Positions 13,441-22,133 of a DNA stretch of 35,517 nucleotides are shown here, one piece after another. Each line of letters starts with the position of its first letter. Positions within the stretch are counted from its first letter, which is position 1. The stretch comes from an uncultured Bacilli bacterium (GTDB lineage Bacteria > Bacillota_I > Bacilli_A > RF39 > UBA660): contig CANRDN010000021.1 of assembly GCA_947629375.1 (NCBI GenBank), positions 1 to 35,517 on the forward strand, read 5' to 3'. The notes beneath the pieces are model-generated. The model searched no databases and was not told the origin of the DNA. It saw nothing but the letters and a program-made list of their open reading frames with translations. The translations under genes were made by a program, and so were the position numbers.

Positions 13441-13608
13441 AACTATCCTCCTACAATGATTATAAAAAATTAACGCTTATTTTTCAACTTTAATAGAGTA
13501 ATTTAATAACTTCTTGACATTATTTCCATAGAAAATTTAAATTAATTTTTAATAAAAATATAACACTAAAAGTAAAGAAATATATTCAAAAAATATAGTT
13601 TGATATGT

Positions 13609-13614
13609 TATAAT
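13609..13614 (+). promoter_or_regulatory. Extended -10 of the C11 peptidase operon
   Basis: TGTTATAAT, an extended -10, 25 bases upstream of the start codon; the -35 (TTCAAA-like) is weak. Confidence 0.5.
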
Positions 13615-13638
13615 TATTTTATTATAGTAGGTGAGTTT

Positions 13639-15831
13639 ATGGATAAAGATAATAACGAAGATTTTTATTACAACGTTAAAGAAAAAGATGGAAAAGTTGT
13701 AATTGAAAAAATTAGCAAAAAACACGAGTCTAATGAAGAAGAACCTTTTGCTGAGAAGGAAGAACCTAGTGTTCCTAAACCTAAAGTAGAAGATGACTCT
13801 TGGTACAATATTAAAGAAGAAAATGGTGTTGTATCAATTGAAAAGAAAAGCAAAAAGGTAAAAAATGATGATGAAGAAAATGAGAAAGTGGAAGAGGAGC
13901 CATCAGCAAAAACTTTAGAAGAACAAAGCAATGATTACGATGCACCTGAATTAGTTGAAGAAAACACCTATGTAAAACCTAAGAAGAAGACTTTAACTAG
14001 ATGGATACCTGTAGCTGGAGTCCTTTTGGTTTTAATTGTCTTTTCTTTCGTATTTTTAACATTTACTTCTAAAAGTACTAAAAACGGACCTAAAGAAAGA
14101 ACTTTTATGATTTATATGGTTGGTTCAGACCTTGAGTCAAGTGGTGGTATTGCATCTTTTGACTTAAAAGATTTGACATCATCATCAGTAGATTTGGATT
14201 CTACTAATGTTGTCTTAATCGTAGGTGGTTCTAAAAAATGGCATAACTTTGTTAACGAAGATGAACTTGGAATATATGATTTAACAAGTAGTGGATTTGA
14301 AAAAAGAAAAACGCTTGGTAATAAAAATATGGGAAGCAGTTCTACATTATCTTATTTCTTAGATTACTCATATGAAAATTATCCAGCAGATAAATATGAT
14401 CTATTATTTTGGAATCACGGGTTGGGAGCAGTTGGACTTGAAGCAGATGAATTGTCAGATGACTTTGTCGATATAACAGAACTTGATAAATCTTTTAACA
14501 ATAGTAAATTTAAAGATCAAAAACTTGAAGTAGTTATCTTTAATAACTGCTTAGCAGGTAACATACATTTTGCTAAAGTAATGAGTAAATACGCTGACTA
14601 TATGGTAGCAAGTGAAGAAGTAATGTATGTAGGTCAATTAATAGATAGACTTGATTTCCTTGAAGATATCGATTCAAAAGATAATGGTTACGATATCGGT
14701 TTAGCATACATAGAAAACTCAGATAAATCAATGAATTCTGCTAATAAGTTTACAAGAAGTAATATGGATTCAACACTTTCTATTATCGATTTAAGTAAGG
14801 TATCAAAATTAGATTCTGATTTAAATAAATTCTTTGGTTCAATTAATATAAGCACTAATTTTAAAAATGTTGGATATGCAAGGAAAAAATTATTTACTTA
14901 TGGAGAAAGTGTAGATGCATCATACGATGTTGTCGATTTATATGATTTTATTGATGCTTTAGCTCCTTTATCTAGTGATAGCTCTTTAGCAACTGCTGTC
15001 AAAGATGATTTAAAGTCAGCTGTAAAGTACAACAGTTCATTTAATAATCATTCTAATGGCTTATCTATTTACTTCCCATTCAATGGTTCTTTGGATGTAA
15101 TAGAAACTCACTTATACTTATTTGGTCAATTATGGGATGATAACTATACTAAATTTATTAATGATTTTTATGATATAGCAACAGGAACTAAAAAAGCAAG
15201 AAGGGCACTAAGTGGAAGTAATGTAAACTATTTAAAAAATAAACTATCTTATAAAGGTAAGACTTTGTCAATTAATCTTACTGATGAAGAAAAAGAAGTA
15301 TATCAATATGCAAATGTGTATATTTTCTCTAAAAATACAACAGATGAATCATACAAACTTTTATTAAGAACTGACAATGTTCATCTAGAAAATAATACAC
15401 TTAAGTATAATCATTATGGAATATTAAATATTAATAATACAAACAATGTTTCTTTAATTGAAAAAGATAATCAATATATATTATATGGAGCATTAAATGA
15501 TACTGATGTAATTTCTAATGTAACAATATCTGATAATAAAGTTAATTTAGATAGAGTAACCTTAGATAGTAAAGATAAACCTTCTATGGTTTTGATGGAT
15601 GTAGAAGAAAACGATAAAGTATCATTCTATAATCTAAACTATATAATAACAGAAAATGGAAAAATAAAAGAAGACTGGAAAGAGACAGTTGATAGAGAAA
15701 AAGTAGAATATAATGACGATGAATCTACTGCTAAAATTGATGAAAAGAATTTAAAAGGATATTATGTTTTAGTAGAAATGTTTGATATTAATAACGATGT
15801 ATTCTATAGTGAATTAACACAGATAAAATAA
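13639..15831 (+). CDS. Membrane-anchored C11 (clostripain-family) cysteine protease, copy A
   Basis: A 730-residue surface protease. The cytoplasmic N-terminus (1-117) is very acidic and holds two copies of an 18-residue motif (YN-K-E-xx-G-x-V-x-IEK-x-SKK at 11-28 and 56-73). A single TM segment spans about 122-142. The extracellular C11 domain begins RTFMIYMVGSDLESS; the catalytic pair is H260 in FWNHGLG and C304 in FNNCLAG, the clan CD arrangement. A beta-rich region without known name fills the last 200 residues. C11 enzymes cut after basic residues and often self-process. ATG at 13639 follows TAGGTGAG; an earlier in-frame ATG lies before the promoter. A paralogue follows 15 bases downstream. 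Activity is inferred from the motifs. Confidence 0.88.
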   Translation: MDKDNNEDFYYNVKEKDGKVVIEKISKKHESNEEEPFAEKEEPSVPKPKVEDDSWYNIKEENGVVSIEKKSKKVKNDDEENEKVEEEPSAKTLEEQSNDYDAPELVEENTYVKPKKKTLTRWIPVAGVLLVLIVFSFVFLTFTSKSTKNGPKERTFMIYMVGSDLESSGGIASFDLKDLTSSSVDLDSTNVVLIVGGSKKWHNFVNEDELGIYDLTSSGFEKRKTLGNKNMGSSSTLSYFLDYSYENYPADKYDLLFWNHGLGAVGLEADELSDDFVDITELDKSFNNSKFKDQKLEVVIFNNCLAGNIHFAKVMSKYADYMVASEEVMYVGQLIDRLDFLEDIDSKDNGYDIGLAYIENSDKSMNSANKFTRSNMDSTLSIIDLSKVSKLDSDLNKFFGSINISTNFKNVGYARKKLFTYGESVDASYDVVDLYDFIDALAPLSSDSSLATAVKDDLKSAVKYNSSFNNHSNGLSIYFPFNGSLDVIETHLYLFGQLWDDNYTKFINDFYDIATGTKKARRALSGSNVNYLKNKLSYKGKTLSINLTDEEKEVYQYANVYIFSKNTTDESYKLLLRTDNVHLENNTLKYNHYGILNINNTNNVSLIEKDNQYILYGALNDTDVISNVTISDNKVNLDRVTLDSKDKPSMVLMDVEENDKVSFYNLNYIITENGKIKEDWKETVDREKVEYNDDESTAKIDEKNLKGYYVLVEMFDINNDVFYSELTQIK

Positions 15832-15846
15832 GAAACTGGTGATTTT

Positions 15847-17877
15847 ATGAATAATCAAGATTACAATTATAGGAGAAATGTAAACCAAAATTATAATGAC
15901 TATAAATCTTTTGATGAAATGAACAAAGATTTTAAAAGAAACAATGGAAATAATAATCCAATGTATCAGAATTCTTTTAATACTAATATGTACAACACAT
16001 ATGTTAACAAAGATAAAATAAGTTCATTGCCTAGTAAAGAAAAATTGCGTTTTGGGAAAATTCTATTTATATTTGTAATCTTGTTTTTAATTGGTTCATC
16101 AGTTTTTATCGGCTTTAAAGTTTTTAGAAGTCAAAATATGAAAAAAAGAACATTTATGATCTATATGGTTGGATCTGATTTGGAATCTAAATCTATGCAA
16201 GGGACTTATAGTATTTCAGATATTGTAGGAACTAATATTGATTTGGAAAACAATAATGTTGTTTTAATAGCAGGTGGTTCTAAGAAATGGCATAATTTTG
16301 TAAGTGAAAATGAAATAGGTATCTATAACTTAAAAGAAGAGGGATTTGAAAAAGTTAAAGATTTACCATTAAGTAGTATGGGTAGTAGTAATAACTTAAC
16401 ATCTTTCCTTAATTATGTATATAACAATTATAAAGCTGAAAATTATGATTTAATCTTTTGGAATCACGGATTAGGATCAATTGGAATAGAGCAGGATGAA
16501 TTATCAAATGATTACTTATCTATTTCTGAGTTAGACAAAGCTTTAAAAAATACAAATTTTAAAAATAAAAAATTAGAATTAACTATCTTTTATAACTGTC
16601 TATCTAGTAATTTACATATGGCTAAAGTAATGAGTAAATATTCTAATTATATGGTAGCAAGTGAAGAAATATTTTACTTATCTAAAGTATTAAATAGACT
16701 TAATTTCCTTGAAGAGGTTGAAGTAGAGGATACAGGTTACGATATAGGACTTCGTTTTATTAAACAGTCTGATAAAGTAACAAATCAGTATAATGATAGT
16801 CACTCTAATAAAATAGATTCAACTCTTGCAATAATAGATTTAAAAAATATTGATGAATTAGATAAAAAAGTAAATAAGTTCTTTGAATCTGTCAACTTGG
16901 AAAGCAACTATTATCGTATTGCAAGTATTAGAAGAATGATGCATACTTATGGACAAACACAAACAAATAATTATGACAATGTCGATTTATTTGAACTTGT
17001 TAAGATACTTAAAGACTACTCTAACAATGAAGATGCTGCCGATAAACTTTTAGATGAAATATATGATACAGTGGCATATTCAAGTAGTTTTAATAGTTAT
17101 TCTAATGGCTTATCAATTTACTTTCCTTATTATGGAAGTGATGATGCAGTAGAAACGCATCTTATTGAGTTTGATAAATTATGGAATGATAGTTATATAA
17201 ACTTCATAACAGATTTCTATGACATAAGAACAAGTGCTAAAAGAGCAATAAGAGATAAAAATGGAAGTAATGTAATAACATTAAAAAATGAAGTAAAAGT
17301 AAATGGTAAAGAAGTTTCTTTAAATCTAACTGAAGAAGAAAAAGAAAAGTATCAATATGCTAATTTTTATATCTTTACAAAAGATGAAGATAACAAATAT
17401 AAAATGCTTTTAAAAACAAATAAAGTAGAACTTGAAAATAACACATTAAAATTTAAAAATAACAAATTATTAATAGTAAATAATAAATACATATCACTAG
17501 TAGAAAAAGATAATAAATATATCTATGGAACATTATCTAATGAAGAAGACAATTTAGATGTAATAAATTACTTAGATGATAACTTAAAGATTGTAGAAAC
17601 TTATTTAGATAGTAAAGAAAACTTTATTTCAAGTATTGTAGATTCAAATGATTATAATAAAATGTCTTTATATAATTTAAAATATGATCTATTAGAAAAT
17701 GGAAAGTTACAAGAGTACTTTGCAAGTACTGAAGAAAAAGAATATATTGAACTTGACAAGAATAATTTAGATATTAAGTTAATAGATAACAACTTAAATG
17801 AATATTATGTTTTATTCGAAGTATATGATACTTACAATGATGTATCTTATTCAGAATTAACAAGGGTAACTAAGTAA
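15847..17877 (+). CDS. Membrane-anchored C11 (clostripain-family) cysteine protease, copy B
   Basis: A 676-residue paralogue of the preceding gene. The cytoplasmic N-terminus (1-70) differs: it is Asn/Tyr-rich (NYNDYKSF, NNGNNNP) rather than acidic. The TM segment is about 73-95. The C11 domain starts KKRTFMIYMVGSDLES; catalytic H207 (FWNHGLG) and C251 (FYNCLSS) are both kept, so both copies look active. The C-terminal beta-rich region is shared with copy A (for example LSIYFP and the SELT ending). The 15-bp gap and absence of a terminator show one operon. The duplication is old: the sequences are clearly homologous but diverged throughout, which points to separate roles. Confidence 0.87.
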   Translation: MNNQDYNYRRNVNQNYNDYKSFDEMNKDFKRNNGNNNPMYQNSFNTNMYNTYVNKDKISSLPSKEKLRFGKILFIFVILFLIGSSVFIGFKVFRSQNMKKRTFMIYMVGSDLESKSMQGTYSISDIVGTNIDLENNNVVLIAGGSKKWHNFVSENEIGIYNLKEEGFEKVKDLPLSSMGSSNNLTSFLNYVYNNYKAENYDLIFWNHGLGSIGIEQDELSNDYLSISELDKALKNTNFKNKKLELTIFYNCLSSNLHMAKVMSKYSNYMVASEEIFYLSKVLNRLNFLEEVEVEDTGYDIGLRFIKQSDKVTNQYNDSHSNKIDSTLAIIDLKNIDELDKKVNKFFESVNLESNYYRIASIRRMMHTYGQTQTNNYDNVDLFELVKILKDYSNNEDAADKLLDEIYDTVAYSSSFNSYSNGLSIYFPYYGSDDAVETHLIEFDKLWNDSYINFITDFYDIRTSAKRAIRDKNGSNVITLKNEVKVNGKEVSLNLTEEEKEKYQYANFYIFTKDEDNKYKMLLKTNKVELENNTLKFKNNKLLIVNNKYISLVEKDNKYIYGTLSNEEDNLDVINYLDDNLKIVETYLDSKENFISSIVDSNDYNKMSLYNLKYDLLENGKLQEYFASTEEKEYIELDKNNLDIKLIDNNLNEYYVLFEVYDTYNDVSYSELTRVTK

Positions 17878-21579: not shown

Positions 21580-21607
21580 AACCTTGAGTTTTTCAAGGTT
21601 TTTTATT
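21580..21607 (+). terminator. tRNA-Ala terminator
   Basis: AACCTTGA/TCAAGGTT 8-bp stem with a short T-rich loop and a T run. Confidence 0.85.
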
Positions 21608-21618
21608 TTGTATAGTAC

Positions 21619-21647
21619 TTGTATAAAAAATATTTTTATGTTATTAT
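21619..21647 (+). promoter_or_regulatory. Candidate promoter of antisense RNA 1
   Basis: TTGTAT (21619-21624), 17-bp spacer, TATTAT (21642-21647). It would start RNA near 21654, facing the 3-prime end of peptide copy 1. Confidence 0.45.
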
Positions 21648-21653
21648 GAATTT

Positions 21654-21765
21654 GTCAAGGAAACTTGAATAAAATAAAAAAGGATACATTTGATTGGGGT
21701 AATCAAATACAGTCCCTTTGTTAGGATGCATCTAAAGTCAACGAAAGTTGAAATTAGAAGTTTTG
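21654..21765 (+). ncRNA. Candidate antisense RNA to peptide copy 1
   Basis: From the promoter above, a plus-strand RNA of about 110 nt would contain the ATTTGATT/AATCAAAT hairpin and the TCAAC-GAAA-GTTGA hairpin and end at TTTT (21761-21764). It would be complementary to the 3-prime part of the copy 1 message. Ends are estimates. Confidence 0.4.
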
Positions 21766-21843
21766 ATATTTTAGAAGTAAAATAATTACGACAAAGAATA
21801 ATAGTAGAATTATAATAAACTGAGAGATTTTTCTTTGTATCAA
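21754..21843 (-). pseudogene. Hydrophobic peptide, copy 1 (ribosome site lost)
   Basis: A 29-codon frame aligned with copy 2 through its whole length: it carries the core ISQFIIILLLFFVVIILLLK and a short extra tail YQNF. The start codon position is TTG instead of ATG, and no Shine-Dalgarno precedes it; instead the terminator of unit 2 lies directly upstream, so it is unlikely to be well expressed. From the ISQ codons onward it differs from copy 2 at nine synonymous and only two amino-acid-changing codons (F/Y and F/L), which shows the peptide was under protein-level selection after duplication. Its frame also contains a TATAAT that may serve antisense RNA 2. Confidence 0.6.
21788..21816 (+). 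promoter_or_regulatory. Candidate promoter of antisense RNA 2
   Basis: ACGACA (4 of 6 to TTGACA), 17-bp spacer, perfect TATAAT (21811-21816). It lies inside peptide copy 1 on the opposite strand. Confidence 0.45.
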
Positions 21844-21857
21844 GTGAACTTGAATAA

Positions 21858-21899
21858 AATAAAAAAGGATACATTTGATTGTGCGAATCAAATGCAATC
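21858..21899 (-). terminator. Terminator of the copy 2 peptide mRNA
   Basis: On the minus strand an imperfect long stem whose core is CATTTGATT/AATCAAATG (5-nt loop) is followed by TCCTTTTTT. Its 3-prime arm also matches the 5-prime end of the same mRNA. Confidence 0.7.
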
Positions 21900-21912
21900 C
21901 CTTTGTTAGGAT

Positions 21913-21948
21913 AGCATCTGAGATCAACGAAAGTTGAAATCAGATGCT
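21913..21948. terminator. GAAA-loop hairpin shared by both convergent RNAs
   Basis: 9-bp AGCATCTGA/TCAGATGCT plus an inner 5-bp stem and tetraloop. On the plus strand it is followed by TTTT and would end the antisense RNA; on the minus strand it lies just after the peptide stop codon. Confidence 0.65.
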
Positions 21949-21952
21949 TTTG

Positions 21953-22030
21953 CTATTTTAGCAGTAAAATAATTACAACTAAGAATAGGAGTAATATTAT
22001 GATATATTGAGAAATTTCTCTTTTTGTCAT
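21953..22030 (-). CDS. 25-residue hydrophobic membrane peptide, candidate type I toxin
   Basis: A short gene encoding MTKREISQY followed by an almost unbroken I/L/V/F membrane helix and a terminal lysine, the make-up of small membrane-damaging type I toxins. The ATG at 22030 is preceded by AGAAAGGTGGTG, which matches the ideal anti-Shine-Dalgarno complement at 11 of 12 bases. A promoter lies at 22105-22133 and a terminator follows at about 21860, giving an mRNA of about 240 nt. The ribosome site is held in a hairpin and the mRNA ends are complementary. A convergent antisense RNA is predicted. The sequence does not resemble TxpA, Fst, Ibs, Ldr or Hok that I know. It could instead be a small regulatory membrane peptide. 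Confidence 0.75.
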   Translation of the reverse strand: MTKREISQYIIILLLFLVVIILLLK

Positions 22031-22040
22031 AAAACCACCA

Positions 22041-22070
22041 CCTTTCTTTTATCAATTGATAATAGAAAGG
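22041..22070 (-). promoter_or_regulatory. Hairpin sequestering the ribosome site of the peptide
   Basis: In the mRNA CCTTTCT pairs with AGAAAGG of the Shine-Dalgarno (7 bp), then one mismatch and TTATC/GATAA (5 bp) with an AATT loop. This would keep the full transcript poorly translated. Confidence 0.7.
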
Positions 22071-22071
22071 G

Positions 22072-22098
22072 AAAGCATCTGATAATTCAAATGTATCC
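22072..22098 (-). promoter_or_regulatory. Leader elements complementary to the mRNA 3-prime end
   Basis: In the mRNA leader, GGATACATTTGA (22098 to 22087) is a perfect 12-nt complement of the terminator arm at 21878 to 21867, and ATCAGATGCTTT (22083 to 22072) is a perfect 12-nt complement of 21950 to 21939. The two pairings nest, so they can form together. Confidence 0.7.
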
Positions 22099-22104
22099 GC
22101 AAAT

Positions 22105-22133
22105 ACTATACAGAATACTAAATAATATTACAA
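22105..22133 (-). promoter_or_regulatory. Promoter of the hydrophobic peptide gene
   Basis: On the minus strand TTGTAA (22133 to 22128), 17-bp spacer, TATAGT (22110 to 22105). The start would be near 22098-22100, so the mRNA would begin with the GGATACATTTGA element. Confidence 0.65.

Follow-up and report, generated by a model that had tools for sequence, protein, structure and literature searches.

A candidate type I-like toxin–antitoxin family with complementary mRNA ends in uncultured Bacilli

Results

A putative type I-like module in the window

A stretch of 35,517 nucleotides from an uncultured Bacilli bacterium (the window) carries a locus that we consider probably (at a rough probability of 0.8) to be a type I-like toxin–antitoxin module of an undescribed family, where we infer both the toxicity of the peptide and the expression of the RNAs from sequence. 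The module would consist of a short gene for a hydrophobic peptide on the minus strand and a convergent antisense RNA gene on the plus strand (Table 1). An initial annotation of this DNA had suggested an undescribed module of this type, a suggestion that is supported across relatives by the coding frame, by the antisense promoter and terminator, and by pairing between the ends of the mRNA. The tandem truncated copy, the conserved antisense promoter that precedes it, and the complementary mRNA ends had been missed.

The 25-codon hydrophobic gene, its minus-strand promoter, and its minus-strand terminator are all present as the initial annotation had described them. Transcription would be expected to start at position 22098 and to yield an mRNA of about 240 nt, the 3′ end of which (around 21890–21861) comprises a hairpin followed by TATCC and TTTTTT, with TTTTTTATTTTAT directly after the 3′ arm. 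The Shine-Dalgarno sequence had been called near-ideal and is good but imperfect. The second leader arm has alternative partners, namely positions 21939–21950 (a perfect 12-mer) or the mRNA 3′ arm near 21880–21890. On the plus strand, the promoter-like element that had been noticed is probably the one at 21788–21816, from which an RNA of about 135 nt (about 130 nt had been claimed) would run to a hairpin just past the peptide stop codon, as had also been claimed, and would overlap the mRNA by about 95 nt, close to the proposed 90 nt.

The element at 21788–21816 is a weaker substitute, and the full unit in the window lacks the antisense promoter that is conserved in the family. That promoter instead precedes a truncated tandem copy, which matches the 3′ two thirds of the full unit at 82–90% identity, and RNA would be expected to start from it near position 21654. 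Duplexes with the window mRNA are predicted at −112 kcal/mol for the antisense RNA of the truncated copy, −167 kcal/mol for the cognate antisense RNA, and −124 kcal/mol for that of a second unit in the same genome (C24). Possible sources of antitoxin for the full unit are the truncated copy, acting in trans or by read-through, the weak promoter at 21788, and the C24 unit.

Table 1 Features of the candidate module in the window
Feature	Position	Strand	Remarks
Toxin promoter, TTGTAA-17-TATAGT	22133-22105	minus	9/12 matches
mRNA 5′-terminal arm, GGATACATTTGA	22098-22087	minus	complementary to 21867-21878
Second leader arm, ATCAGATGCTTT	22072..22083	minus	
Shine-Dalgarno and leader hairpin pairing part of the Shine-Dalgarno	22035..22070	minus	
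Shine-Dalgarno-like sequence, AAAGGTGGTGG	22045-22035	minus	GGTGG instead of GGAGG
25-codon ORF, putative membrane toxin, MTKREISQYIIILLLFLVVIILLLK	22030..21953	minus	ATG/TAG; frame kept in 112 units, pN/pS 0.37
mRNA 3′ end: arm region with local hairpin, then U-run	21861..21890	minus	
mRNA 3′ arm, TCAAATGTATCC	21878-21867	minus	complementary to GGATACATTTGA
Antisense terminator hairpin (−20 kcal/mol) with T-run, at toxin stop codon	21914..21950	plus	counterpart in 100/112 units
Weak substitute antisense promoter of the full unit, ACGACA-17-TATAAT	21788-21816	plus	10/12 matches; unconserved in family
Truncated tandem copy	21655..21842	minus	antisense gene kept; toxin promoter, leader and ATG gone
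Antisense RNA 5′ leader, near-invariant: hairpin CAAG-GAAA-CTTG, then AATAAAATAAAAAAG	21656..21682	plus	also search probe
Conserved family antisense promoter, TTGTAT-17-TATTAT, extended −10	21619-21647	plus	precedes truncated copy

Elsewhere in the window we note a 402-aa ORF on the minus strand (524–1732) with an N-terminal HTH_38 domain, which by eye resembles an IS30 transposase; a serpin-family protein (PF00079; 9148–10773) with a membrane segment at its N-terminus; two adjacent, related clostripain-like genes (13600–15831 and 15847–17877), the first of which matches PF03415; and an ordinary T-box leader (RF00230; 26185–26398) before an asparaginyl-tRNA-synthetase-like gene.

The peptide gene is under coding selection in related genomes

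From genomes of related uncultured Bacilli we collected 156 non-identical units. A hydrophobic ORF with its stop codon less than 105 nt before the plus-strand element is found in 112 of them, and in many of the remaining 44 places a hydrophobic core persists with the start lost or the frame shifted. Hydrophobic ORFs preceded by a Shine-Dalgarno sequence and scoring above 4 occur at 100 of the 156 element-anchored places; among 2000 random windows drawn from these loci, 25 contain one. This excess, together with units of the same layout at C24, C6, C7, C10, and C11, indicates that the locus did not arise by chance. The initial annotation had proposed conservation of the frame in relatives as a check on its reading, and across 845 pairs of related coding sequences pN/pS is 0.37 in frame, compared with 0.64 and 1.46 in the other two frames. 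As judged from these substitution patterns, the peptide is under purifying selection. The peptides are mostly 24–31 aa long (25 aa in the window), with a short N-terminus that contains Lys or Arg and often Asp or Glu, and one long run of I, L, V, and F that often has a Lys at its end. A small hydrophobic peptide gene under coding selection, which is a trait of type I systems (usually less than 60 aa), is therefore present.

Consistent with the earlier remark that the peptide may belong to an undescribed family, searches of Pfam, NCBIfam, and PHROGs with the peptides returned nothing beyond chance-level hits on transmembrane segments, such as that of SecE. The PF16935 profile (TxpA/BsrG, Hol_Tox) found nothing in the whole genome, with positive control matches in B. 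subtilis and L. lactis; the PF13955 (Fst) profile likewise found nothing in the genome, and none of 95 distinct peptides contains the P-x3-G motif. Rfam, at gathering and at relaxed thresholds, detected no RNA family at the locus. By sequence, the family is not a member of the known families that we tested. Literature searches located no toxin–antitoxin paper naming RF39 and nothing relevant on type I systems in uncultured genomes.

The family is multicopy and patchily distributed

The genome contains six full units, the truncated tandem copy, and one orphan antisense gene. The unit at C24 has the same layout as the window unit and is 93% identical to it; those at C6, C7, C10, and C11 are more distant, and the peptides of the other units include MKTKTFVIKVLKLIAIILFLLIVMIVVIKK and MKKKDLLISFLIIIIILLIVSLMILCIKK. 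The orphan (C10:43490–43640) is an antitoxin RNA gene with promoter, RNA, and terminator and with no toxin ORF, and is 86–96% like its neighbour at 43102.

Used as a probe with up to three mismatches, the plus-strand element CAAGGAAACTTGNATAAAATAAAA gave matches in 37 of 97 genomes, representing 31 of 79 genera; almost all of these carriers belong to the window's own family. Of 395 genomes of the class, 24 matched a stricter 40-base pattern, all but one of them from that same family, and the reversed pattern matched in none of the 395. The exception, G237 from another family of the class, has one exact match to this antisense promoter and leader pattern (C32:11732–11771), reflecting either horizontal transfer or a misbinned contig. 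In a scan of named genome contigs at least 112 stretches matched; among the matches listed, most were MAGs labelled Bacilli, Tenericutes, Erysipelotrichaceae, Clostridia, or Firmicutes, and two were Candidatus Ventrenecus. We believe the carriers to belong to the order RF39. Single genomes have up to a dozen element matches.

Presence of the unit is patchy, since a relative from the same genus (G001) has the same TrmL and tRNA-Ala genes and then no unit. At the corresponding place (L212) this relative carries a RelB/YafQ-like type II toxin–antitoxin pair, and the site behind tRNA-Ala seems to collect toxin–antitoxin modules. Collections of phages, plasmids, and viral contigs contained no match to the family, which leaves a role in phage or plasmid addiction unsupported.

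These findings bear on what the peptide does. That it is a toxin is suggested by analogy with known systems and by the patterns of decay. In the main alternative, the small membrane peptide would be non-toxic, acting for instance as a regulator on a transporter or in stress signalling, and the antisense RNA would adjust how much of it is made. Many single-helix small proteins are regulators and purifying selection fits a useful product, but we regard this reading as unlikely given the patchy presence of the unit and its absence from the corresponding place in a same-genus relative, the presence in single genomes of many copies that have diverged and have antisense RNAs of their own, and the loss of the ORF where the antisense gene is kept; with the layered repression described below, these features fit a toxin better.

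The two ends of the mRNA are complementary

In the window mRNA, the 12 nt at the 5′ end can pair with the 12 nt that directly precede the U-run. Across 112 units, the duplex between the leader and the 3′ UTR has a mean of −35.5 kcal/mol, compared with −18.9 kcal/mol for dinucleotide-shuffled leaders, and none of 2240 shuffled leaders reached the observed median duplex. For the six full units of the genome, the z scores of the end pairing range from −5.0 to −6.9. At 89.5% of positions the terminal arms pair with each other, and exchanging 3′ arms between units lowers this value to 58% (the largest of 500 swaps gave 65%); arm positions were optimised in this swap test, so that the shuffled-leader test, in which they were optimised alike, is the fairer comparison. 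Several Watson–Crick pair types occur at every arm position, and the arms vary in sequence between units while their complementarity is kept. Pairing between the 5′ and 3′ ends of the mRNA that is maintained through compensating changes, as in hok and aapA, is thus found in this family. In 59 of 88 units a perfect TATAAT precedes the arm by 5–8 nt, a distance from a −10 box that makes the arm the 5′ end of the mRNA. On the 3′ side, a few extra bases (3–8 nt in most units) separate two paired segments and lie in the loop of a weak local hairpin.

The arms might instead be the terminal inverted repeats of a miniature transposon-like repeat, with the promoter and ORF incidental. The units are indeed multicopy and dispersed, with inverted arms at their flanks and an insertion-like pattern of presence and absence, yet we judge this explanation very unlikely because arm sequences vary from unit to unit with their complementarity preserved, unlike the ends of transposons, which are held constant; the position of the left arm just past a −10 box, the conserved antisense promoter outside the right arm, and selection on the ORF also speak against it. 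Less probable still is a chance ORF over a pair of overlapping non-coding transcripts, for although the region is rich in AT and hydrophobic frames readily turn up in DNA of this kind (25 of 2000 random windows reach the score), the in-frame pN/pS and the nearly fixed distance of the ORF and its Shine-Dalgarno sequence from the element in 112 units argue against it.

What closure of the mRNA would do for translation is less evident from folding. Predicted accessibility of the Shine-Dalgarno sequence is 0.18 in the full mRNA, 0.23 without the 3′ arm, and 0.21 with the 3′ UTR covered, and since removal of the arm or covering of the 3′ UTR barely alters it, these predictions leave a translational role of closure unsupported. 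Pairing of the Shine-Dalgarno sequence is modestly stronger than with shuffled leaders (0.30 versus 0.39), and translation may be held back mainly by local pairing in the leader, as in txpA, bsrE, and bsrG (PMC6562991). The mRNA may also be activated by trimming of its 3′ end, as are aapA1 and aapA3 (PMC6733600), but the folding energies do not support this and predict a weak effect. Closure may also shield the mRNA ends from exonucleases; the genome encodes RNase III and two RNase J-like proteins.

A conserved antisense gene matches the 3′ UTR of its own toxin mRNA

The antisense promoter region, taken as the bases upstream of the probe element and lying outside the contig probe, has the consensus TTG..AAAA...TTTTTATGTTATTATG, and in 92 of 110 units the best −35/−10 pair sits at a fixed position with a 17-bp spacer. 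In 100 of 112 units, a terminator hairpin with a T-run and an energy below −5 kcal/mol is found close to the toxin stop codon. The predicted antisense RNA, of about 95–135 nt, spans the whole toxin 3′ UTR and ends at the toxin stop codon. Thus an antisense gene that has its own promoter and terminator and is complementary to the toxin mRNA is found, at the level of sequence, family-wide. The stem of a 5′ hairpin, CAAG-NNNN-CTTG, is paired in 109 of 111 units, which is partly a consequence of the probe: units were gathered by means of the antisense leader, so that conservation of the leader arises in part by selection. U-turn motifs occur in antisense loops in 43 of 88 units, a bare count with no control set.

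Within the genome, duplexes between antisense RNAs and 3′ UTRs range from −137 to −160 for cognate pairs, from −85 to −126 for sister pairs, and from −22 to −51 for all others, a gap between cognate and non-sister pairs that could allow several modules to run side by side. The antisense RNA also contains nearly the same sequence as the 5′ end of the mRNA, and it follows from the sequences that the two must compete for the 3′ end of the mRNA; any effect of this competition is putative.

LexA-like boxes occur in about a third of toxin promoters

The motif NAACN4GTT(T/C) is present in 39 of 107 toxin promoters, whereas about 1.1 would be expected anywhere in the 60 nt searched, and nearly all of these boxes lie 25–28 nt before the mRNA start. 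A box of this kind also stands upstream of the lexA gene (AAACAATTGTTTG; C1, L179:1442) and the recA gene (AAACAAATGTTCG; C15, L197) of the genome, and these two sequences give a first idea of the SOS box in the lineage. Boxes occur in the C7 and C11 units, and none is found in the window, C24, C6, or C10 units. LexA would presumably bind these boxes, and in about a third of copies the promoter looks, from its sequence, to be DNA-damage-inducible. In two reviews (PMC6563280, PMC6562991), the SOS-controlled type I toxins described are from E. coli only.

Discussion

The initial annotation had likened the locus to txpA/RatA and bsrG/SR4, a likeness that holds for the layout of convergent genes overlapping at their 3′ ends and does not extend to homology, which we did not find. 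With these systems and bsrE/SR5 of Bacillus subtilis (PMC6562991) the family shares convergent genes with a 3′-end overlap of about 100 nt and, as predicted here from sequence, an antisense RNA that binds the 3′ end of the toxin mRNA, sequestration of the ribosome-binding site in the leader, and the availability of RNase III. TxpA, however, is about 60 aa long, compared with 25–31 aa for the peptides of the window family, which lack a match to PF16935. Moreover, PMC6562991 describes neither end-to-end mRNA pairing nor SOS control for txpA, bsrG, and bsrE, whereas both are predicted here, SOS control for about a third of units. Long-distance pairing of the mRNA 5′ and 3′ ends, a paired Shine-Dalgarno sequence, and a hydrophobic peptide are shared with hok/Sok and aapA1/IsoA1 (PMC6733600), and a multicopy chromosomal family is shared with aapA. 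In those systems the antisense RNA covers the leader or the ORF, whereas here it is convergent over the 3′ UTR. Activation by 3′ processing, as in hok and aapA1, is not supported by folding here, since the Shine-Dalgarno sequence is predicted to stay poorly accessible after loss of the 3′ arm.

Fst and its RNAI–RNAII pair (par) of Enterococcus and relatives also combine a small hydrophobic peptide with convergent RNAs whose 3′ overlap lies outside the coding region (PMC4147584), but par uses one shared bidirectional terminator whereas the terminators here are separate, and neither P-x3-G nor PF13955 is found. CD2517.1–RCd8 and related systems of Clostridioides difficile (PMC6563280) share convergent, overlapping toxin and antisense genes in several copies per genome and are set apart by description, in that the text of PMC6563280 contains no mention of LexA or of long-distance pairing. 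The LexA-like box in toxin promoters, found here in about a third of units and absent from the window unit, recalls tisB/istR-1, dinQ/agrB, and symE/symR of Escherichia coli, which differ in antisense layout and are unrelated in sequence.

Taking the locus as a toxin–antitoxin module, we envisage that the closed mRNA would be stable and poorly translated, that the antisense RNA would anneal to the 3′ UTR and displace the 5′ arm, and that RNase III would cleave the long duplex of antisense RNA and mRNA, as it does in txpA/RatA and bsrG/SR4. The antisense RNA might fall behind upon loss of a unit, upon growth arrest, or, in units with a LexA-like box, upon release of LexA; the peptide would then be made and inserted into the membrane, and the cell would be slowed or killed. 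More tentatively, at somewhat short of even odds, the units may together form one type I family, multicopy and spread across the lineage, in which the 5′-most 12–30 nt of the mRNA are the other half of its own 3′ stem and so seal the transcript end to end, in which the antisense RNA competes for the 3′ end, and in which about a third of the copies are under SOS control. If true, such control would be the first outside Proteobacteria as far as the surveyed literature shows.

Few lineages are known to have type I systems, which are difficult to detect from sequence. The family described here is abundant in gut Bacilli that are known mostly from metagenomes, and its near-invariant antisense leader provides a simple probe for further members. 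With more than 100 natural variants, in which coupled changes map RNA contacts directly, the family makes it possible to test by comparison how an antisense RNA recognises its sealed toxin mRNA, and also whether toxins of this kind are driven by DNA damage in Gram-positive relatives.
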